A stretch of DNA of 21,678 bases. It comes from a virus. The position numbers and the translations under genes are program-made. How positions within the stretch are numbered: position 1 is the stretch's first letter; each line of letters opens with the position of its first letter. The stretch spans positions 1 through 21,678 of the IMG/VR virus record IMGVR_UViG_3300048591_000352. One strand, written 5' to 3'. Of this stretch, positions 785 to 9,825 are shown in pieces. The notes under the pieces are model-generated. The model saw nothing but the letters and a program-made list of their open reading frames with translations, was not told the origin of the DNA and made no database searches.

Positions 785-1176
785 TGCGGTCTTACATCTG
801 CGATCACGAATGCGACGTGAACGACCCGGAGAGCATCCAGAGGAACCTAGCCAGTGCGACTCTCGACTGGCGCTACAGCGGCGAGGTTGTCGTCTGGTAT
901 GCGGTCAAGGGTGTCGGCATGGGGTCAGTCTTTTGCGCACGCAAGGGGAATAGGTGGTACATCAACACCGAAACCATGCCCTGGGTCTTTTGCTTCACCG
1001 TGTTCCGTGTGGCGTGGGGAAAGCACTTCAACAAAGGGCGGCAGAATCGCCGATGGCGCAAACGGAAAGAGCGGCTGCCGTTCCTGCACGATTGCCGCGC
1101 TTTACTGCTCCAGCGAGCGATGGACGAGGCGAGAAAGCGGCAAGCGCCTGTAACGGAAGGGGGAGAGTATGAGTAA
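781..1176 (+). CDS. Hypothetical basic phage protein
   Basis: A 131-residue protein of unknown function. The start is one of two consecutive ATGs (781 or 784) overlapping the preceding stop. The N-terminus has three cysteines and a histidine (CDHECD and nearby), the middle is rich in Trp, Val and Phe (WYAVKGVGMGSVFCARKG), and the segment around residues 85-105 is strongly basic (GRQNRRWRKRKERL), which could bind nucleic acid. The last 8 bases overlap the DUF5131 gene, so the four genes from position 48 on form one translationally coupled cluster. Nothing more specific can be supported. Confidence 0.68.
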   Translation: MMRSYICDHECDVNDPESIQRNLASATLDWRYSGEVVVWYAVKGVGMGSVFCARKGNRWYINTETMPWVFCFTVFRVAWGKHFNKGRQNRRWRKRKERLPFLHDCRALLLQRAMDEARKRQAPVTEGGEYE

Positions 1177-2101
1177 GATCGAATGGACGGAGAAGACCTG
1201 GAACCCTGTCAAGGCCCGCAACCTAGAAACGGGCAAGGTCGGTAACTACTGCGAGAAAATCAGCGCCGGGTGCAAGCACTGCTATGCGGAGGCCATCAAC
1301 CATCGCGGCATGGAGCCATCCGGCAACGGGCTTTTCTACATCGTTGAAAATCGTCCCAAGGTCGAGATCTTCCTAAACGAAGACATCCTCATGCAGCCGC
1401 TTCAGCGTCGGAAGCCGACAACCTACTTCCCCGGCTCAATGACCGACCTCTTCGGCGATTGGGTGACGGATGAGATGTTAGACCGCATCTTCGCCGTGAT
1501 GGCGCTCTGCCCGCAGCACACGTTCCAGGTGCTGACGAAGAGAGCGCGGCGGATGCGGGAGTATCTGAACACGCCATTCGTTTGTAATCGCATTTTCGAT
1601 CAAATGCGAGCAATCACGCCTGACCGGGGTGTCTGGTGCTGGGACGGCATGGAGCAAATGTTCCGCCATATCCAACTTGGCGTGTCCTGCGAAAACCAAG
1701 AGCAAGCCGACAAGCGCATTCCGGATCTGATCCAGACGCCGGCGGCTGTACGGTTCCTGTCCTGCGAACCACTGTTGGGACCGGTCACAGCAGACCTTAC
1801 GGGTATCGATTGGCTCATCATCGGCGGCGAGAGCGGGCCGGGGGCGCGGCCATGCGAAGTCCCGTGGGTGGAATCGCTCGTAAAGCAGTGCGCGGAGGCC
1901 AACGTCGCGTGCTTTGTGAAGCAGCTCGGAGCGTACGCGGTCGCTCCAGCGGATAAGGGGCTGCGGTTCCGCTTTACGGGTGACGGCATTGAGAAGTGGG
2001 GTAAGGGGGCCGACATGGACCGATGGCCACTAGGCTTGCGCGTGCGGCAGATGCCGGGAGACTTGCGGCAAACCAGCGACAAAACCCCGCTAACCCGCTG
2101 A
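1169..2101 (+). CDS. DUF5131 family (phage Gp37/Gp68-like) protein
   Basis: A 310-residue protein opening with SKIEWTEKTWNPV, the hallmark of the DUF5131 family (often labelled phage Gp37/Gp68). Three cysteines, C28, C35 and C38, in C-x6-GC-x2-CYAE are the family's conserved cluster. The spacing resembles an iron-sulfur or radical-SAM-like site, but the activity of the family is not established. Other typical segments are the SMTDLFGDWV stretch, the QVLTKR motif, the LGVSCENQEQADKRIP motif, the RFLSCEPLLGP motif and IDWLIIGGESGPGARP. The length is normal and the gene looks intact. The ATG follows a purine-rich Shine-Dalgarno (GGAAGGGGGAG) and overlaps the previous gene by 8 bases. The gene is common in phages, usually outside the structural operon. 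Confidence 0.93.
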   Translation: MSKIEWTEKTWNPVKARNLETGKVGNYCEKISAGCKHCYAEAINHRGMEPSGNGLFYIVENRPKVEIFLNEDILMQPLQRRKPTTYFPGSMTDLFGDWVTDEMLDRIFAVMALCPQHTFQVLTKRARRMREYLNTPFVCNRIFDQMRAITPDRGVWCWDGMEQMFRHIQLGVSCENQEQADKRIPDLIQTPAAVRFLSCEPLLGPVTADLTGIDWLIIGGESGPGARPCEVPWVESLVKQCAEANVACFVKQLGAYAVAPADKGLRFRFTGDGIEKWGKGADMDRWPLGLRVRQMPGDLRQTSDKTPLTR

Positions 2102-2794: not shown

Positions 2795-3198
2795 ACACTG
2801 AGGCGTCTAGGCAACTGCGGGTATTGATTAATCACCCGACGCTGACAGCAGACCAGCGCGTGTCAATGATGTGGTTCAACGTCCTGGGGTTCTGCGGATG
2901 CGGCCAACCGGAGGAAGTTCTGGGCCGGATGCGCTCTATCCTTGAGGGGCTGGCGGTTGATACCGGCGGGTTGGGTGCCATCGTTGGCCCCGACGGGTTC
3001 TACAGCGATTCCGATACGCTGCTCTGGTGCTACCTGCTGGACGGCCTGGGCCTGAGCGAGCACGGAACGGGGATCGGCTGGGGGCGGATCACGGACGAAG
3101 GCCGCGCGGTGCTGTCCTGGCTCCGGAAAGTGGAAGCGCCTTCGGATTGTTACCACGAATCACTGGCCGATGAAATCCTGGAGCGCAAGCCGGAATGA
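2791..3198 (+). CDS. Hypothetical protein between terminase subunits
   Basis: A 135-residue protein. The frame is open further upstream, but the natural start is GTG 2791. It overlaps the preceding stop and has AGGAAGG at 2777-2783 as Shine-Dalgarno, while the upstream part is out-of-frame sequence of the two earlier genes. The order of motifs, a CGCGQPEE segment, a LLWCYLLDGLGLSEHG segment and a closing ITDEGRAVLSWL helix, resembles an unnamed family of small phage proteins with a Cys-rich first half and an HG-x-GWxTxxG second half. No function is known. The stop overlaps the large terminase start (ATGA). Confidence 0.8.
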   Translation: MNTEASRQLRVLINHPTLTADQRVSMMWFNVLGFCGCGQPEEVLGRMRSILEGLAVDTGGLGAIVGPDGFYSDSDTLLWCYLLDGLGLSEHGTGIGWGRITDEGRAVLSWLRKVEAPSDCYHESLADEILERKPE

Positions 3199-4790
3199 AG
3201 TCCCTGGCAGAACGCGGGATCTACTTCGACGCACGCCTGGCGGATTCCGCCGTCGAGCGCATGGGGCGGTACCGTTTCCAGGGCCGGGACTTTCCGCTCA
3301 CCGATTGGCAGGCCGAGCACATCATCCGACCGCTTTGGGGATGGCGCCGCGCGGATGGCACGCGCCGTTTTCGTCGATTCCTCATCACGTTCGCGCGCAA
3401 GAACGGCAAAACTACCCTGATCGGCTTGCTATCTGCGGATCTGCTGTACTTCGACGACGACGCCTTCCCCGAAATCGACCTGGCGGCGGCGGATCGCGAT
3501 CAGGCGGGCATCTGCTACGGCGTGGTTTCGTCGCTGATCCAGGAAAACCCGCAACTGGACCGCTTTGCCCGCGTGACGGACTCGAAGAAGCGAATTGACA
3601 TCCTGCTGACCGACAAAACGGGTGGCGTGCGGCGGAAGGGGCACCTGAAAGCGCTTTCCAGTGACGCGAAGACGAAGCACGGGCTGAATCCATCAGTGGT
3701 GGTGATGGATGAGCTTCACGTCTGGCCGGGCCGGAAGTTGTTTGAGGCGCTGACGACGGGCCGGGGCTCCCGAAAGTCTCCGCTTCGCCTGGTAATCTCG
3801 ACGATGCCCGAAGATTCCGGCGGTACGAACGTCATGGAAGAGCAAGTCACCCGCACGCAAGCGGTGCTGTCCGGCCTGATCGACGATCCGACGACGGGCG
3901 GCTATCTCTGCATTCCGCCGGACGGCGCGGACCCGCACGATGAGGCGACCTGGGCGCTTGGAAACCCCGGGCTCGGCACCATCAAGAGCCTGGACACCAT
4001 GCGGGAAGACTATCAGGAGGCGAAGGACATACCGGCGCTGTTCAACGCCTGGTGCCAGTTCGAGTTGAACATGCGCGTGGAGCGGCAAGCGGCTGCACTG
4101 TCGAAGGAGCAATGGGACGCACAGCAAGCGCCGTTCGATCCGCTCCCGGGAGCCCGCTGCATCCTTGGCTTGGATCTATCCTCCACAGTGGACATGACCG
4201 GGGCGGCGCGGATTTACCCGCAGGCCAACGGCGATTGGTGGGTGAAGTTTGACGCCTGGACGCCGGGGCAGACCATGATCCCGCGCGAAAAGAAAGACAT
4301 GATCCCGTACACGTCCTGGGCGCGCGACGGGTACCTGCACAAGATGCCGGGCAAGGCCATCGACCACGGCATTCTCAAGCAATGGGTGCTCGACTTGCTG
4401 GCGGAATGCGATCTGGTGCAAGTGTCCTGCGATCCCTGGAACGCCGGGAACTTCCTGCAAGACTTGGAGAACGAGGGGCTTTCGGTTAACTCGATCCGGC
4501 AGGGCTACGCCTCGATGAACGCGCCCTGTAAGGAACTTTTGCGGCGGCTGCTGGAGGGCACGATCTGGTTTCACCCGCACCCGGTGGCAGACTGGATGCG
4601 GGCGAACGTGATCTTTACGCGAGACCCGGCGGGCAACCTGAAGCCAGACCGCCGGCGGGAACGCGAGAAGATCGACGTCTTTGCGGCGCTGCTGAACGCC
4701 ATCGACGTGGCTATGCGCATCGCGCCGAAGCCGGAAGCGCCCAGGAGGTCGGTCTACAACACGCGGGCGCCGCTAGTGCTGTCGGTCTGA
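3195..4790 (+). CDS. terL: Terminase large subunit (Terminase_1 type)
   Basis: A 531-residue DNA-packaging motor with ATPase and nuclease domains. The ATPase shows a Walker A-like ARKNGKTT at residues 67-74 and a Walker B VVVMDELH at 168-175. The RNase H-like nuclease shows an acidic residue in LGLDLSS (D327), a second in VSCDPWNAG (D413) and a third in KIDVFAALLNAID (D494), the usual spacing for metal-binding acids in this family. The length is normal and nothing is missing. The start overlaps the preceding stop by 4 bases. The 3' end overlaps the convergent small gene on the - strand by 37 bases (4754-4790). The portal gene does not follow directly: about 1.1 kb of antisense genes intervenes. 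Confidence 0.96.
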   Translation: MKSLAERGIYFDARLADSAVERMGRYRFQGRDFPLTDWQAEHIIRPLWGWRRADGTRRFRRFLITFARKNGKTTLIGLLSADLLYFDDDAFPEIDLAAADRDQAGICYGVVSSLIQENPQLDRFARVTDSKKRIDILLTDKTGGVRRKGHLKALSSDAKTKHGLNPSVVVMDELHVWPGRKLFEALTTGRGSRKSPLRLVISTMPEDSGGTNVMEEQVTRTQAVLSGLIDDPTTGGYLCIPPDGADPHDEATWALGNPGLGTIKSLDTMREDYQEAKDIPALFNAWCQFELNMRVERQAAALSKEQWDAQQAPFDPLPGARCILGLDLSSTVDMTGAARIYPQANGDWWVKFDAWTPGQTMIPREKKDMIPYTSWARDGYLHKMPGKAIDHGILKQWVLDLLAECDLVQVSCDPWNAGNFLQDLENEGLSVNSIRQGYASMNAPCKELLRRLLEGTIWFHPHPVADWMRANVIFTRDPAGNLKPDRRREREKIDVFAALLNAIDVAMRIAPKPEAPRRSVYNTRAPLVLSV

Positions 4791-4948
4791 GGCTTTGGCT
4801 TCGCGGGCCGTCCGCGCTTGCGGGGCGGTGCCAGTTCTGGTACCGTTTCGCGAACGTACGCGGACACGGAAGGGAGACGCCGGGAGCGCGCCGCGGATTC
4901 CAGGGCGGCGTGCTCGGCTTCGGTGGTGATGATTCTTAGTTCTGGCAT
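4754..4948 (-). CDS. Small ribbon-helix-helix-like protein with AT-hook
   Basis: A 64-residue protein on the - strand. The N-terminal half (a short beta-like LRIITTE followed by two helices, EAEHAALESAARSR and SVSAYVRETV) has the pattern of a ribbon-helix-helix DNA-binding fold. The C-terminal part contains RKRGRPAKPKP, an AT-hook core (RGRP) in a basic, proline-rich setting. Together these suggest a small DNA-binding regulator. The start has a GGAGA Shine-Dalgarno 5 bases upstream. It is the last gene of the antisense cassette, and its 3' end overlaps the large terminase gene by 37 bases. A regulatory role over the cassette promoter is inference. Folding was judged by eye. Confidence 0.72.
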   Translation of the reverse strand: MPELRIITTEAEHAALESAARSRRLPSVSAYVRETVPELAPPRKRGRPAKPKPQTDSTSGARVL

Positions 4949-4986
4949 GATGTCTCCATGGGAGCGGGTGCGCCTTGCTTGCGCGG

Positions 4987-5187
4987 TTAGCGACTAGCAG
5001 CGTGCACCCGGTCAAGCGACTTTTCGTGCTCCGACTGCGTATGAGGTCTCCCGCGCAAGCATGCGGGGCAGTCGGGGTGATAGATGGCGTACGCCGCCTT
5101 GTTTGTGCCCCCACTCTCCTTCGCGACAATAGCGCAGGTCAAACAGCCCGGTTGCGGGTGGGTTTTGTGTTTTTTGCAATACAGCAT
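4987..5187 (-). CDS. Small Cys/His-rich protein of the antisense cassette
   Basis: A 66-residue protein with Cys/His clusters: C4-x2-H7, C15-x2-C18 and H37-x2-C40-x2-C43. These could bind one or two zinc ions. The start has AGAGGA just upstream (AGAGG-AAAA-ATG), supporting translation. A second overlapping - strand frame here lacks these signals and is taken as a shadow. It is the third gene of the four-gene antisense cassette. The function is unknown. Treble-clef or HNH-like fragments can look similar, but no HNH catalytic signature is visible. Confidence 0.72.
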   Translation of the reverse strand: MLYCKKHKTHPQPGCLTCAIVAKESGGTNKAAYAIYHPDCPACLRGRPHTQSEHEKSLDRVHAASR

Positions 5188-5208
5188 TTTTTCCTCTTTC
5201 TTGGCATT

Positions 5209-5243
5209 CCACCATGAGCTACCGCCGTAACGGTAGCAGGTGG
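5209..5243 (-). other. Intergenic bulged hairpin in antisense cassette
   Basis: On the - strand the gap between the second and third cassette genes folds into a 7-bp stem (GCUACCG/CGGUAGC, 6-base loop) stacked on an outer 5-bp stem (CCACC/GGUGG), with a 1x4 internal loop. There is no following U-run, so it is not a standard intrinsic terminator. It could stabilise or separate messages, or be a protein-binding RNA. It lacks the hammerhead core bases found in the neighbouring gap. Confidence 0.5.
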
Positions 5244-5250
5244 GGGAACG

Positions 5251-5502
5251 CTAGGCGTAGATCTGGTATTCTTTGTGGCACTGCGCGACCCATTGGCGCG
5301 GCTCCAACGGGGCGGGCTCCAGTTCCCGCCACTCCAGCGTGCCGAAATCCGAGTATGCGGACTGGGCCTCTTCCAGTGTTGGCCAGTGCCCAGCGCGGAT
5401 CAGGATTTCGCGCCCGAAGTCGTTTTCGTCCCGGCATTCGCACACGGACCCGCAGTAGCGGTCGTTTCCCTCATCGTAAAAAACGCTGATTTCGTAGATC
5501 AT
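5251..5502 (-). CDS. Small acidic protein downstream of the ribozyme
   Basis: An 83-residue acidic protein of unknown function with four cysteines (CGSVCEC and one near the C-terminus). Two ATGs are possible: 5508 abuts the AGAGG Shine-Dalgarno (5513-5509), while 5502 sits 6 bases from it and is chosen. The N-terminus (YEISVFYDEGNDRYCGSV) looks like a beta hairpin and the middle like a helix (TLEEAQSAYSDF). Its ribosome-binding site lies in the outer stem of the hammerhead ribozyme immediately upstream, so its expression may depend on ribozyme folding or cleavage. A small acidic phage protein could be a host-takeover or anti-defence factor, but nothing in the sequence proves it. Confidence 0.72.
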   Translation of the reverse strand: MIYEISVFYDEGNDRYCGSVCECRDENDFGREILIRAGHWPTLEEAQSAYSDFGTLEWRELEPAPLEPRQWVAQCHKEYQIYA

Positions 5503-5506
5503 GCTC

Positions 5507-5581
5507 ATCCTCTTTCTGGCTTCCGCCTACCCCTTGCGGGGTTTCGGCCCGTGCCAAGGGCCTCGTCAGGGCGGTTAGGAT
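5507..5581 (-). ncRNA. Hammerhead ribozyme (type I)
   Basis: Read on the - strand (5' to 3' = falling coordinates). Stem I 5' strand CCGCC is 5574-5570. CUGACGA core is 5569-5563. Stem II GGCCC/GGGCC is 5562-5558 and 5550-5546, with loop UUGGCAC. GAAA is 5545-5542. Stem III CCCC/GGGG is 5541-5538 and 5533-5530, with a GCAA tetraloop. UA is 5529-5528, and stem I 3' strand GGCGG is 5527-5523. All invariant core positions match: C3 U4 G5 A6 N7 G8 A9, G12 A13 A14, the A15.1-U16.1 pair, and H17 = A. Cleavage is predicted between 5528 and 5527. Stem I continues after an internal loop as AUCCU (5581-5577) with AGGAU (5511-5507). Loop II UGGC (5556-5553) can pair with GCCA (5520-5517) in the stem I internal loop, the loop-loop contact expected of fast natural hammerheads. 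It lies exactly between two cassette genes. Confidence 0.93.
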
Positions 5582-5790
5582 GCGACCGGCCGCATTTTGC
5601 AGTACACATGCCGCCAGTAATCGACGAACTCTTCCTCGACTTCGATGTCGTACGCCCTGTCGTCATAGGGCAGCACGCCGTAAACCTTGCGGCAGTCTTC
5701 GTTGAAATGCCCGAGCATGTTCGTTTCTGAACCGGGCGCCAAGTCCCTTTCGTGTCCTTTGATTTCGGCTCTGAGTTCTGCGAGTGTCAT
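5575..5790 (-). CDS. First gene of the antisense cassette, small acidic protein
   Basis: A 71-residue acidic protein of unknown function. It starts with a helix (TLAELRAEIKGHERDL) and continues with a segment rich in Asp, Glu and aromatic residues (DDRAYDIEVEEEFVDYWRHVY). An AAGGAA Shine-Dalgarno lies 8 bases before the ATG. It is the promoter-proximal gene of the - strand cassette, about 40 bases downstream of a plausible -10 box. Its stop codon (5577-5575) lies at the very edge of the hammerhead ribozyme, so cleavage would leave its message with a ribozyme hairpin at the 3' end. Confidence 0.74.
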   Translation of the reverse strand: MTLAELRAEIKGHERDLAPGSETNMLGHFNEDCRKVYGVLPYDDRAYDIEVEEEFVDYWRHVYCKMRPVAS

Positions 5791-5830
5791 CGTTCTGGTT
5801 CCTTTCGGTCTCTCGCTGCCTTACATCCTT

Positions 5831-5859
5831 ATTATGGAGTATTTCTGCTCGCAGTGCAA
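5831..5859 (-). promoter_or_regulatory. Candidate sigma70-type promoter for antisense cassette
   Basis: On the - strand, CATAAT (5836-5831, five of six to TATAAT) lies 17 bases after TTGCAC (5859-5854, a partial -35 match), about 40 bases upstream of the first cassette ATG. The surrounding 70 bases are much richer in A and T than the rest of the window, as expected for a promoter. Direct repeats flank the boxes. The - strand genes need a promoter of their own because they oppose the late operon. The -35 is weak, so the call is moderate. Confidence 0.5.
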
Positions 5860-6058
5860 CAAAAAAGTGGAGTATTTACGAAAAAAGTCGCAAGTCACGG
5901 CGAACAGACGGTTTTGCACTTGCGGGGCGTGGACATCCGCAACGCTATCCGCTCCTGGCTCGGGCTTGGGGCGATACCCCGCGAAAAGTGGTCAATGTTC
6001 GGCGCGGAAACGTCGGAGAGCGGCGAAGTCGCCGGAGTCTCCCACGAGCGGGCGCTGA
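5834..6058 (+). CDS. Possible zinc-ribbon ORF overlapping the portal start
   Basis: A 74-residue frame. The first 35 residues contain C5-x2-C8 and, about 21 residues later, a C-x-C-G turn, a pattern seen in small zinc ribbons. The rest overlaps the portal gene in another frame and is low-complexity Ser/Arg/Ala sequence. There is no clear Shine-Dalgarno, which lowers confidence. An in-phase A AAA AAG (5881-5887), the classic -1 slippery heptamer, would move ribosomes into the portal frame, with GGAG 8 bases upstream acting like the dnaX stimulator. It may be a real small gene, a frameshift-fused N-terminus of the portal, or chance. Confidence 0.38.
   Translation: MEYFCSQCNKKVEYLRKKSQVTANRRFCTCGAWTSATLSAPGSGLGRYPAKSGQCSARKRRRAAKSPESPTSGR
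5835..5877. repeat. Paired 10-bp direct repeats at the cassette promoter
   Basis: TGGAGTATTT occurs at 5835-5844 and again at 5868-5877, 33 bases apart, about three helical turns. One copy overlaps the edge of the predicted -10 and the other lies upstream of the predicted -35. A second direct repeat, AAAAAAGT, occurs at 5861-5868 and 5881-5888. Repeats on the same face of the helix around a promoter suggest operator sites. The AT-hook protein at the end of the cassette is a candidate binder (inference). Part of this sequence also lies in a + strand ORF. Confidence 0.45.
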
Positions 6059-7944
6059 ATCAGATCACCTACGCTACCTGCATCGAGCTGCTGGCCCGGG
6101 ACATCGCGAAGCTGCCAATCCACCTGTACCGAGCCGCGCCTGGCGGGGTCCGGGAGCGGGCGGAAGACGACCCGCGGTACTGGATGCTGAAGCAAGCGCC
6201 GAATCCCGACATGACGCGCGTCGAATTCGTGCTCTCCCTCATGGGAAACTGCCTGTCCTGGGGCAACGGCTACGCTGTCATCGAGCGGGATGGAATCGGC
6301 CGGCCGAAGGCTATCTATCCACTACTGGCGCAATATGTGAAGCCGTACCGGAGCGGGCGGAATCTGCGCTACGAAGTGCGCTACCCGGAGATTGCGCCTA
6401 CCTCGTTTGCCGCGGCGGACGTGATCCACATCAAGCGTTACACCCTGGACGGCATCACTGGGGTTTCGCCGATTGGCATGTTGCGCTTGACCATCGGGCA
6501 GCAGGTGCGCGCGGATGAGTACGCGGCGAAGTTCTACACGGACGGGGCGTTGCTTTCCGGGGTGATCGCTGCGGACGGCGAACTGTCCGACGAAGGCCGG
6601 AGCGCGCTCGAAGCATCTTGGAAGAAGTTCAAGGCGGGCGTCCGGAATGCTTTCTCAATTCTGGTGCTGGAGGCCGGGTCCAAGTTTCAGCCAATGGCGA
6701 TTCCGCAGAAGGACGCCCAGTTCCTGGAGTCGAACCGCTTTCGCGCTGAGCAGGTAAGCGCGTTTCTGGGCATCCCGCTCTACCGGCTGAACGATCTGAC
6801 GAAGATGACCTACACGAAGCTGGAGGAAAACGCCCTCAGCTACAAGCAGGACACCCTGCTGTTTTGGACGGAGATGATTACCGGGGAACTCGACCGCAAG
6901 CTCATTGGCCAGAATCAGAACCTTTATTTCGAGTTCAACTTCGACCAGTACCTGCAGGCGGATCGCGTGGCGACCGAAGACGCGAACACGAAGGCCCTGC
7001 AGCGCGGCGTCACGATCAACGAAATGCGGCGCCGGGACAACCTTCCGCCCGTCGAGGGTGGCGATACTCCGCTTGTGCCGGTCAACATGCAGACCCTGGA
7101 TCGCGCCATCAACCCGCCGGAGCCCGCAGCCGCGCGGCCCGCTCCCGTGGCTGGCGAGGCTTCCCGCCGGCACTCTGTATCGTGCTCCTGTGGGAGCTGC
7201 CAGCCGAAGGCGTCGCGAACAGATACGCGCGCTGGCCGCTACCTCCGCGTTGCGATTACCGGAACGGACGCGCTGGAGGACGCCATTGCGCGAGTCGTTC
7301 GCAAAGAGGTCTCGGACGTTCACCGGCTACTACCGAAGCTGCAAGTCCTGGACGATTGGGAAAACCTGCTCGATAGCTACTACAGCGACGAAATCCGCAA
7401 CCGCGTGGCGCGGGATCTGGAGAAAGTCTTCCTGTCGATCACTCGCGGCGTCCACGCTGAACTGGCTGAGCAATTGTCCGTCGAGATCGCGCAAACCGTG
7501 TCCCGGGAATTCGCCGAAGCCTACGCCGCGAACTACGCGAAGGCGTACACCTCAGAGTCCGCGCTGCAGTTGGCGAAGCTGGCCAAGGGCGTGTGGAATC
7601 CGGAAGACTTGATCGAAGTGGTGCGCAAGCGGCTCCGCGAGTGGGAAGAGAAGCGGGCGCGGAAAGAGGCGGACGCGGAAAGCGTGCGGATCGCGAACAA
7701 GGCCGCCCGGGAAACCTACCGCCAGCACGGCATCCAGACTCTGGTATGGCGTGCGAACGCCAATGCCTGCCCGCTTTGCCAATCGATGGACGGGCGGACC
7801 TGTGGGATTGAAAGCCCGTTCCTGGCCCACGATGATAAGGTGGACCCCGGCGACGGGAAGACCGCGCCGCTGACTGTTCGCGGCAACCTGATGACGCCTC
7901 CACTGCATGGCGGCTGTTTCTGCTGGATTGAACCTGGAGGGTAA
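5929..7944 (+). CDS. Portal protein fused to MuF-like head morphogenesis domain
   Basis: About 671 residues from GTG 5929. The first ~395 residues are an HK97-type portal, the dodecameric DNA gate at the head vertex: YATCIELLARDIAKLPIHLYR near the start, then MGNCLSWGNGYAVIERD, the IPLYRLND segment, and EMRRRDNLPPVEGGDTPLVP at its end. A Pro/Ala linker with a CSCGSC cluster follows. The last ~240 residues are helical and end in a MuF-like domain with CPLCQSMDG (C614, C617) and a PPLHGGCFC close. MuF proteins are minor head proteins usually encoded separately after the portal. The start is uncertain: the frame is open back to 5752 but that part is antisense to the small cassette genes, and GTG 5929 lacks a strong Shine-Dalgarno. 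ATG 5995 is an alternative. Confidence 0.9.
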   Translation: MDIRNAIRSWLGLGAIPREKWSMFGAETSESGEVAGVSHERALNQITYATCIELLARDIAKLPIHLYRAAPGGVRERAEDDPRYWMLKQAPNPDMTRVEFVLSLMGNCLSWGNGYAVIERDGIGRPKAIYPLLAQYVKPYRSGRNLRYEVRYPEIAPTSFAAADVIHIKRYTLDGITGVSPIGMLRLTIGQQVRADEYAAKFYTDGALLSGVIAADGELSDEGRSALEASWKKFKAGVRNAFSILVLEAGSKFQPMAIPQKDAQFLESNRFRAEQVSAFLGIPLYRLNDLTKMTYTKLEENALSYKQDTLLFWTEMITGELDRKLIGQNQNLYFEFNFDQYLQADRVATEDANTKALQRGVTINEMRRRDNLPPVEGGDTPLVPVNMQTLDRAINPPEPAAARPAPVAGEASRRHSVSCSCGSCQPKASRTDTRAGRYLRVAITGTDALEDAIARVVRKEVSDVHRLLPKLQVLDDWENLLDSYYSDEIRNRVARDLEKVFLSITRGVHAELAEQLSVEIAQTVSREFAEAYAANYAKAYTSESALQLAKLAKGVWNPEDLIEVVRKRLREWEEKRARKEADAESVRIANKAARETYRQHGIQTLVWRANANACPLCQSMDGRTCGIESPFLAHDDKVDPGDGKTAPLTVRGNLMTPPLHGGCFCWIEPGG

Positions 7945-7950
7945 CGACCG

Positions 7951-8574
7951 ATGCCAAAGAACGAAAACCGTAACCTGCGCATTTCCAAACAGATCCGCAT
8001 GGAGGGCGAAGGCGCGGCCCGAAAGATCACCGGATACGCCGCCGTCTACAACTCGATGAGCCTCGACCTGGGCGGCTTCCGCGAAATCATCCGCCCTGGC
8101 GCGTTCGCGGGGACTCTCACGGAAGACGTGCGGGCGCTGCTGAACCACGATTCCAACATCGTTCTTGGCCGCACCACGGCGGGCACGCTGAAGCTGGCCG
8201 AGGATGACATCGGCCTCCGCTTCGAGTGCGATCTGTCGGACTCTCAGCTCGTGCGGGACATGGTTGTTATCCCGATGGAGCGCGGCGACATTAGCCAGTG
8301 CTCGTTTGCCTTCTACATCGACCAACCGGAAGACCATTTGTGGCGGGAGTCCCGCGAAGAGGGATTCATTCACGAAGTCCTCAAGGCTCGCATCGACGAT
8401 GTGTCGGTAGTCACATACCCGGCCTACCCAGCCACTTCCGCGGATGTGAGGAGCGCACTCCAGCGACTCCAGAACCCCGCGAGTGGGCAGGCGCCCGGCG
8501 CGGAGTCGCAGCCGAGGCAGGCGCTGAGGCGGCGGGAACTGGAACTGGCAGAGCGGGTGGGGCGATTCCTCTGA
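7951..8574 (+). CDS. HK97-family prohead protease
   Basis: A 207-residue serine protease of the HK97 prohead type (peptidase family S78), which cleaves the capsid protein N-terminus and itself during head maturation. The N-terminal ITGYAAVYNSMSLDLGGFRE and RPGAF segments are typical. The catalytic residues fit H66 in LLNHD and S118 in SQCSFAF, with the acidic residue near D150 in IDDVSVVTYPAYP. The start has GGAGGG overlapping the portal stop. The C-terminal 40 residues are a Pro/Gln/Arg-rich tail that is probably dispensable or self-cleaved. It is placed directly before the major capsid gene, as usual. Confidence 0.95.
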   Translation: MPKNENRNLRISKQIRMEGEGAARKITGYAAVYNSMSLDLGGFREIIRPGAFAGTLTEDVRALLNHDSNIVLGRTTAGTLKLAEDDIGLRFECDLSDSQLVRDMVVIPMERGDISQCSFAFYIDQPEDHLWRESREEGFIHEVLKARIDDVSVVTYPAYPATSADVRSALQRLQNPASGQAPGAESQPRQALRRRELELAERVGRFL

Positions 8575-8595
8575 TTCCAAATCAGGGAGAACCCC

Positions 8596-9825
8596 GTGAA
8601 CAAAGAAAAGCTGATGCGTGAGTATCAGCAGCTTTGCGCAGACCAGCGCAAGATGCTTGACCACGCTTCGAACGAGAACCGCGATCTCAACGCCGAGGAA
8701 AGCCAGTCTTACGACCGCATGACCGAGCGGCTCGGCGAAATCACCAAGTCCATTGAACGTCTCAACGCGCTCGAAGTTGCCGAGCAGCGGATGCAGGAAG
8801 TCCGGAACCCGATTCCGGCCGGACTGTTGCCCGGGCAGGGCACGCGCGGCGCGGATGGTGTCACCGAAAACAGCGATTGGAGCCAGTTCCACCGCGGCAA
8901 CCGTGGCGAACCGGAGTACCGCAAGGCGTTCGCGTCCCTGCTGCGCTCCGGCTCCGACGCGGAACTCCGCGCCCTGGGCACCGGCTCCGTAGGCGCGGGC
9001 TCCGCGTTGGTTCCGAAGTGGCTCTACACCGAGGTTGTGAAGTATCTGCAGCAGGCGGTGCGGATGCGGCAACTGGCCACGGTGCGGACGTCGGACACCA
9101 ACATGGATATTCCGATCATCATTCCACCCACGGCGGCATGGAAGGCGGAATCCGCAGCCTACACCGACACCGACCCGACCTTTGAGAACAAGACGCTCAC
9201 CGCGCGCAAGCTGACCTGCCTCGTGAAGATCCCCGAGGAATTGCTGGCGGATGCGGCCATCGATCTCGAAGATGAAGTCATGATGTCGCTGCAGGTGGCT
9301 TTCGCGCAGGCGGAAGAGAAGGCCTTCCTCGTGGGCACTGGCTCCGGCGACAACCAGCCGCGGGGTGTTGTGCTCGATGCGGGCGTGGGCAAGACTGCCG
9401 CTGCAACGGGCGCGGTCACTGCCGACGAAATCCTCGACCTGTTTTACAGCCTGAAATCGCAATACCGGGATCGCGCCGTCATGTTTATGAACGATGCGAC
9501 CCTGGCGGCGATTCGCAAGCTGAAGAGCGCCGTAGACGGCCACTACATTTGGGTGCAGGGCTTCGGAACGAACCCGGGCACCATCGAGGGGCGGCCGGTC
9601 TACACAAACTCGAACATCGCGACCATGGCCGCCGACGCCAAGACGATCATCTGGGGCGATATGTCCTACTACCGCATCCAGGATCGCCCGGGCATCTTTG
9701 CCCAGACGCTCCGGGAGCTGTACGCGGGCAACGGACAGGTGGGCTACCGCATGTATAAGCGCACCGATGGGGCGTTGACGGTGGCCGAAGCGGTCAAAGT
9801 CCTGCAGATGGACGACGGCGTGTAG
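8596..9825 (+). CDS. Major capsid protein, HK97 fold
   Basis: A 409-residue capsid subunit. Residues 1-70 are a charged helical segment, the delta domain that acts as built-in scaffold and is removed by the protease, followed by a Pro/Gly-rich spacer. The mature part begins around residues 95-130 and includes RALGTGSVGAGSALVPKWL, typical of HK97-type capsids, then segments such as AFAQAEEKAFLVGTGSGDNQPRG and VMFMNDATLAAIRKLK, and closes with FAQTLRELYAGNGQVGYRMYKR. The start is GTG with AGGGAG 6 bases upstream. The exact cleavage site cannot be read from sequence. A strong hairpin follows the gene, fitting a highly expressed product. Confidence 0.96.
   Translation: MNKEKLMREYQQLCADQRKMLDHASNENRDLNAEESQSYDRMTERLGEITKSIERLNALEVAEQRMQEVRNPIPAGLLPGQGTRGADGVTENSDWSQFHRGNRGEPEYRKAFASLLRSGSDAELRALGTGSVGAGSALVPKWLYTEVVKYLQQAVRMRQLATVRTSDTNMDIPIIIPPTAAWKAESAAYTDTDPTFENKTLTARKLTCLVKIPEELLADAAIDLEDEVMMSLQVAFAQAEEKAFLVGTGSGDNQPRGVVLDAGVGKTAAATGAVTADEILDLFYSLKSQYRDRAVMFMNDATLAAIRKLKSAVDGHYIWVQGFGTNPGTIEGRPVYTNSNIATMAADAKTIIWGDMSYYRIQDRPGIFAQTLRELYAGNGQVGYRMYKRTDGALTVAEAVKVLQMDDGV

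Follow-up and report, generated by a model that had tools for sequence, protein, structure and literature searches.

A probable pseudoknotted type I hammerhead ribozyme in an antisense gene island between phage terminase and portal genes

The window, by which we mean the whole stretch of DNA that was analyzed, is a virus record of 21.7 kb. Genes for the terminase large subunit and the portal are found on its + strand, and between them is a leftward island of four small ORFs (A to D). A hammerhead ribozyme lies between ORFs A and B of this island. Its first base directly follows the TAA of ORF A, and it ends just upstream of AAAGAGG and the ORF B start codon ATG. The features of the locus are as follows.

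3195..4790, + strand: terminase large subunit gene (phrog_9, E 1e-120)
4754..4948, - strand: ORF D, 64 aa, whose last part overlaps the terminase gene's 3' end
4987..5187, - strand: ORF C, 66 aa, Cys/His-rich, with AAAGAGG in front
5251..5502, - strand: ORF B, 83 aa from the ATG at 5502-5500 (85 aa from 5508)
5517..5574, - strand: type I hammerhead ribozyme together with its pseudoknot tail, from the sequence and from a model (R1) built without the window
5523..5574, - strand: three-way junction of stems I-III with CUGACGA, GAAA and UA, whose minimum-energy fold is the hammerhead fold
5574-5570 with 5527-5523, - strand: stem I, 5 bp, CCGCC/GGCGG, from the sequence
5569-5563, - strand: core CUGACGA, from the sequence
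5562-5558 with 5550-5546, - strand: stem II, 5 bp, GGCCC/GGGCC, from the sequence
5551..5557, - strand: loop II, UUGGCAC, in which UGGC (5556-5553) is one half of the pseudoknot; an NUGGYNN loop is kept in relatives and covaries with the tail
5545-5542, - strand: core GAAA, from the sequence
5541-5538 with 5533-5530, - strand: stem III, 4 bp, CCCC/GGGG, with loop GCAA, from the sequence
5528..5529, - strand: UA, U16.1-A17 by hammerhead numbering, with predicted cleavage between 5528 and 5527
5517..5520, - strand: GCCA tail 3' of stem I, the other half of the pseudoknot, which pairs with UGGC at 5556-5553 and covaries with it in relatives
5575..5790, - strand: ORF A, 71 aa, whose stop TAA (5577-5575) adjoins stem I
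5752..7944, + strand: portal gene, longest frame (phrog_12, E 6e-97 over residues 93-658)

The AAAGAGG at 5515-5509 is likely the ribosome-binding site of ORF B, and the true start of the portal gene is probably further in than that of the longest frame, at GTG 5929 or ATG 5995. Neither PHROGs nor Pfam yields a family for ORF A or ORF B at a meaningful score. ORFs C and D likewise match no family at such a score, and ORF D has a sub-threshold NikA-like match (E 0.028). A first-pass annotation had placed the element within a group of - strand genes flanked by the terminase and portal genes, and the ORF calls and the phrog_9 and phrog_12 matches agree with that location. No promoter for the island was called at the threshold of the promoter scan; a possible Sigma-70 promoter with CATAAT at 5836-5831 has a poor -35 box, was not called by the scan and was rejected. 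The next gap in the island (5250-5203, - strand), which extends from the ORF B stop to the ribosome-binding site of ORF C, contains a strong, long hairpin (-28.3 kcal/mol, z -4.8) with a 3x3 internal loop and a UACG tetraloop. This hairpin has no Rfam match and might be a terminator, an RNase III site or another structured RNA. Elsewhere in the window, a protein of the DUF5131 family (phrog_2045) is encoded at 1169-2101 (+ strand), upstream of the gene for the small terminase.

Read 5' to 3' on the - strand, positions 5574-5517 consist of the segments listed above in direct succession, with AA between the second strand of stem I and the GCCA tail. On re-reading of the letters, every invariant hammerhead base occurs at the position first assigned to it, as do the proposed stems of 5, 5 and 4 bp and the GCAA cap. 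The element has the C3 U4 G5 A6 N7 G8 A9, G12 A13 A14, A15.1-U16.1 and H17 that define the hammerhead core (PMC3088659). Its three helices occur in the right order, the core-adjacent pairs C1.1-G2.1, G10.1-C11.1 and A15.1-U16.1 are all paired, and the permutation is type I, with stem I open to both strand ends and loops closing stems II and III. We take the UA at 5529-5528 to be U16.1-A17, which places the predicted cut between 5528 and 5527.

The hammerhead three-way junction is exactly the minimum-energy fold of positions 5574-5523, which is also the fold first proposed, and represents 71% of the ensemble. The stability of the fold is unexceptional for a GC-rich sequence (z -1.7 for 5574-5523, and z -0.6 for a 91-nucleotide fold that includes flanks), so the argument for a hammerhead rests on the core and the connectivity. 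Agreement of these features by chance had been judged very unlikely. Consistent with this judgment, 694 Mb of sequence simulated with a first-order Markov model of the window contain no match to a type I descriptor with the exact core and the observed stems of 5/5/4 bp, a descriptor that matches the window only once. A looser descriptor with stems of 4/2/3 bp has 10 matches in the same 694 Mb, which corresponds to 0.0006 expected per window.

Pattern scans of viral contigs showed that the architecture of this hammerhead recurs at more than 50 phage loci. A pattern comprising the core, CC..GCAA..GG and UA is found in three viral contigs, two of which (L004 and L005, from AT-rich phages) share the loop and the tail. 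A scan with the loop and tail motif returned further members together with chance matches, and the stemless matches of the first looser scan were taken as chance and served as a control. The main pattern, CTGANGA-N5-9-TGGY-N6-11-GAAAC-NNN-GNRA-NNN-GTH-N7-RCC, fixes the core, the loop II motif, the tail and a stem III that is closed by C-G and capped by a GNRA loop, but leaves stems I and II free. It matches 52 viral stretches, and 50 of these have a stem I of at least 4 bp along with stem III; the other two have a stem I of 3 bp. A Christensenellales phage (IMGVR 15666929; PV036454.1) has the same element and two more with lower scores. In a scan of genome contigs with a pattern restricted to TTGG and TA, none of the 21 matching stretches has paired stems, and these were rejected as chance.

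The first-pass annotation had also proposed looking for homologues between terminase and portal genes in related phages, and no relative that shares the flanking genes could be identified. Searches of viral contigs with the portal, terminase, ORF A and ORF B proteins found no true relative; one 12-residue match of ORF B on a 1-kb viral contig was taken as chance. ORFs A and B have no match in the named-phage collection, and blastn of positions 4700-8700 against named phages gave a 56-base protease match only.

Several other hammerheads were observed in these contigs. Two tandem type I hammerheads are present in L003 (7269-7318 and 7439-7507, + strand) upstream of a tRNA cluster at approximately 9.1-9.7 kb; they have a common stem I, GGTTAA/TTAACC, and a loop II without the UGG motif. 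A further type I hammerhead that R1 misses is present in L069 (4846-4902, - strand), in an array with two others. It has stem I CGCC/GGCG, stem II GGCCC/GGGCC and a UA site like that of the window. Both hammerhead types occur together on the viral contig L062, with a type II element (RF02276) at 1084-1147 (+ strand) and a type I element of the window's kind at 3093-3158 (+ strand).

A covariance-model match in Rfam was another proposed check, and none was obtained at the gathering score when Rfam 15 models, including RF00163, RF00008, RF02276 and other hammerhead families, were used to scan the window. The best permissive match is to RF00008 (Hammerhead_3), which aligns the core and stem II only and scores 19.1 bits against a cut-off of 48.5. 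Rfam misses the type I relatives as well. Scans of L003 to L005 yielded tRNAs only, there was no type I call in L011, L017, L022 or L047, and there was none in 14 further relative loci, where the one match was the separate type II element of L062. In the most consensus-like relative (L079), RF00163 (Hammerhead_1) aligns the correct core and stems and scores 22.1 bits, below its cut-off of 34. The failure of Rfam on the window therefore reflects the library threshold and not the element. The window's group is a sharply defined set of phage type I hammerheads that is mostly missed by Rfam 15, whose curated models do not recognize the combination of an NUGGYNN loop, a GNRA-capped stem III and a CCA tail.

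Comparative data support the proposed fold. Because a first MAFFT alignment (A1) placed the window's loop one column off, the model was built without the window, from an alignment (A2) of 34 distinct relatives. In A2, 97.5% of paired cells are standard pairs, and double changes occur in 13 of the 19 pairs. There are 124 double-change cells, versus 26.6 +/- 4.3 in shuffles, and pairing is at most 43.5% when partners are slid. Compensatory changes thus occur in the stems of the relatives themselves. The sequences CUGANGA, GAAA and UH are fixed in relatives while the stems vary freely, although the search pattern itself also imposed the core.

The original suggestion of a possible 4-bp pseudoknot between UGGC (5556-5553) and GCCA (5520-5517) is likewise supported by covariation. 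The TGG and CC of the pseudoknot were fixed by the search pattern and so prove nothing, but its Y/R pair (columns 28 and 63) was left free by that pattern and never mismatches: 29 of the 34 relatives have U-A there and 5 have C-G. The outer U-A/U-G pair, whose 3' side was not fixed by the second pattern, is formed in 33 of the 34 sequences. This contact between loop II and the stem I side is the one that characterizes pseudoknotted hammerheads. The covariance model derived from A2 (R1) finds the window's element at 5514-5577 (- strand) with 59.3 bits and an E value of 6.3e-16, which is rough given the short calibration but leaves a large margin. This is the sole match in the window, and it bears out the identification as a type I hammerhead. 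A stemless sequence that matched the pattern only (L096) has no R1 match.

The position of these RNAs between genes is as consistent as their structure. Among 74 distinct elements, 68 are at the stop of the upstream ORF (control 6.1%), 63 are directly before a ribosome-binding site and ATG (control 6.9%), and 59 show both, versus 1.5% of random positions. The window's ribozyme has the same placement, between two small - strand ORFs. Whole-record searches found many phages with 2-6 copies, with up to 6 elements per phage contig; the window has a single copy, whereas several relatives have arrays. The genes downstream of the relatives have no common function, and the few that were recognized include two anti-restriction proteins and a helicase. 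This lack of a shared function points to a role at the RNA level. An apparent 47% identity to ORF B in the protein downstream of the L062 element, seen in a multiple alignment, is a gap artefact without BLASTP support. In many elements found with R1 (for example, L090, L070 and L091), the upstream frame ends at the UGA within CUGANGA, and the conserved core may thus double as a stop codon in many relatives.

A 2011 study (PMC3088659) already described hammerheads from phages and prophages, among them type I forms with pseudoknots and groups located between genes, and the window's copy adds another. That study reported pseudoknots in all three hammerhead types and clusters flanking phage genes; clustered hammerheads cleaved in vitro, and a set from Agrobacterium tumefaciens also cleaved in E. 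coli. Enrichment of ribozymes near Mu-like phage genes has also been described (PMC10085705). The core, open stem I, stem I-II pseudoknot, phage or prophage context and intergenic location of the published type I RNAs are like those of the window's copy, which differs in being antisense between terminase and portal genes. The rarity first attributed to the element was therefore overstated, except as regards this unusual site. In L004 and L058 the ribozyme strand is also opposite the terminase gene, yet outside the terminase-portal interval, so the exact site in the window is a single case, and no second example was found.

Two other systems resemble the element in part. The HHphage RNAs of haloviruses HF1 and HF2 also occur in DNA phages a short distance before a start codon, although they have a variant core and belong to archaeal viruses; an mRNA 5' end there maps within 3 nucleotides of the hammerhead site, 13 nucleotides before the start codon (PMC3088659). 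Type II arrays (RF02276) in the Streptomyces phages R4, Salutena and Andris occur serially between small phage genes, like the arrays of the relatives, but they have the type II permutation, with stem II open, and leave part of the core on the downstream mRNA. Each of these three genomes has 9-12 such elements, mostly located in the right-hand region, where they occupy gaps between small genes.

Considering its fold, its family and its location, the element is very probably a pseudoknotted type I hammerhead that acts between co-directional small phage genes by cutting the - strand RNA and so separating mRNAs within the operon. Hammerheads cleave 3' of H17, which leaves a 2',3'-cyclic phosphate and a 5'-hydroxyl, and we infer such cleavage and end chemistry here, as well as an effect on mRNA stability or expression. 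When the - strand island is transcribed, the RNA would fold into the three-way junction, and loop II would pair with the tail that directly follows stem I on its 3' side, which would hold stems I and II side by side. The strand is predicted to be cut between A5528 and G5527. The ORF A mRNA would then end in the two hairpins of the ribozyme with a 2',3'-cyclic phosphate, and the ORF B mRNA would start with GGCGG and a 5'-hydroxyl, about 25 nucleotides before the start codon. With a type I element, the catalytic hairpins would thus remain on the upstream mRNA. Cutting of phage transcripts into mRNAs of operon or gene length has been proposed before, and the mechanism agrees with that proposal and with the 5' end mapped in HF1 and HF2 (PMC3088659).

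Perhaps the element is a real hammerhead by descent but has no role in this phage, being a relic or a slow ribozyme, and the island might be little transcribed. Its single copy, the absence of a promoter from the scan and its lack of conserved neighbours would suit a relic, and among 18 consensus hammerheads assayed in vitro, 14 were active and 4 inactive (PMC3088659). We regard this as unlikely, because decay would be expected at some of the many constrained positions, whereas the core, all three stems and the pseudoknot are intact, in exactly the position between stop and ribosome-binding site that the family occupies. Alternately, cleavage might switch on translation of ORF B, if CAUCCU at the end of ORF A masks AGGAUG at the ORF B ribosome-binding site until the cut. 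The minimum-energy fold of 5590-5500 includes this 6-bp CAUCCU/AGGAUG outer helix, but relatives show no excess of such a helix (the longest one averages 4.99, versus 5.06 in re-paired controls), and unmasking is quite improbable. It is also very improbable that the hairpins form an intercistronic terminator, an RNase III site or a 3' stabilizer with an incidental likeness to a hammerhead. The strong hairpin in the next gap suggests that hairpins between island genes may be a general feature, but the element lacks a U-tract, and a plain hairpin needs none of the single-stranded core sequences that are fixed in relatives (in part by the search pattern). Chance assembly of the motif in GC-rich DNA, which folds easily and here yields a 91-nucleotide fold of ordinary stability, is exceedingly improbable given the empty Markov control, the match to the held-out model, the fitting pseudoknot and intercistronic position and the failure of R1 to match the stemless L096.

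Processing of - strand mRNA by a hammerhead is the preferred explanation, and the tight placement between stop codons and ribosome-binding sites, beside unrelated genes, makes this idea directly testable. The group also shows that self-cleaving RNAs are more numerous in phage genomes than annotation based on Rfam cut-offs suggests. More tentatively, diverse DNA phages might use a cassette of stop codon, hammerhead and ribosome-binding site as punctuation that converts polycistronic early transcripts into single-gene mRNAs, where the upstream mRNA would keep the ribozyme hairpins at its 3' end and the downstream 5'-hydroxyl would bypass decay initiated at a 5'-monophosphate. The window would then carry one such cassette among the late structural genes, in an antisense island.
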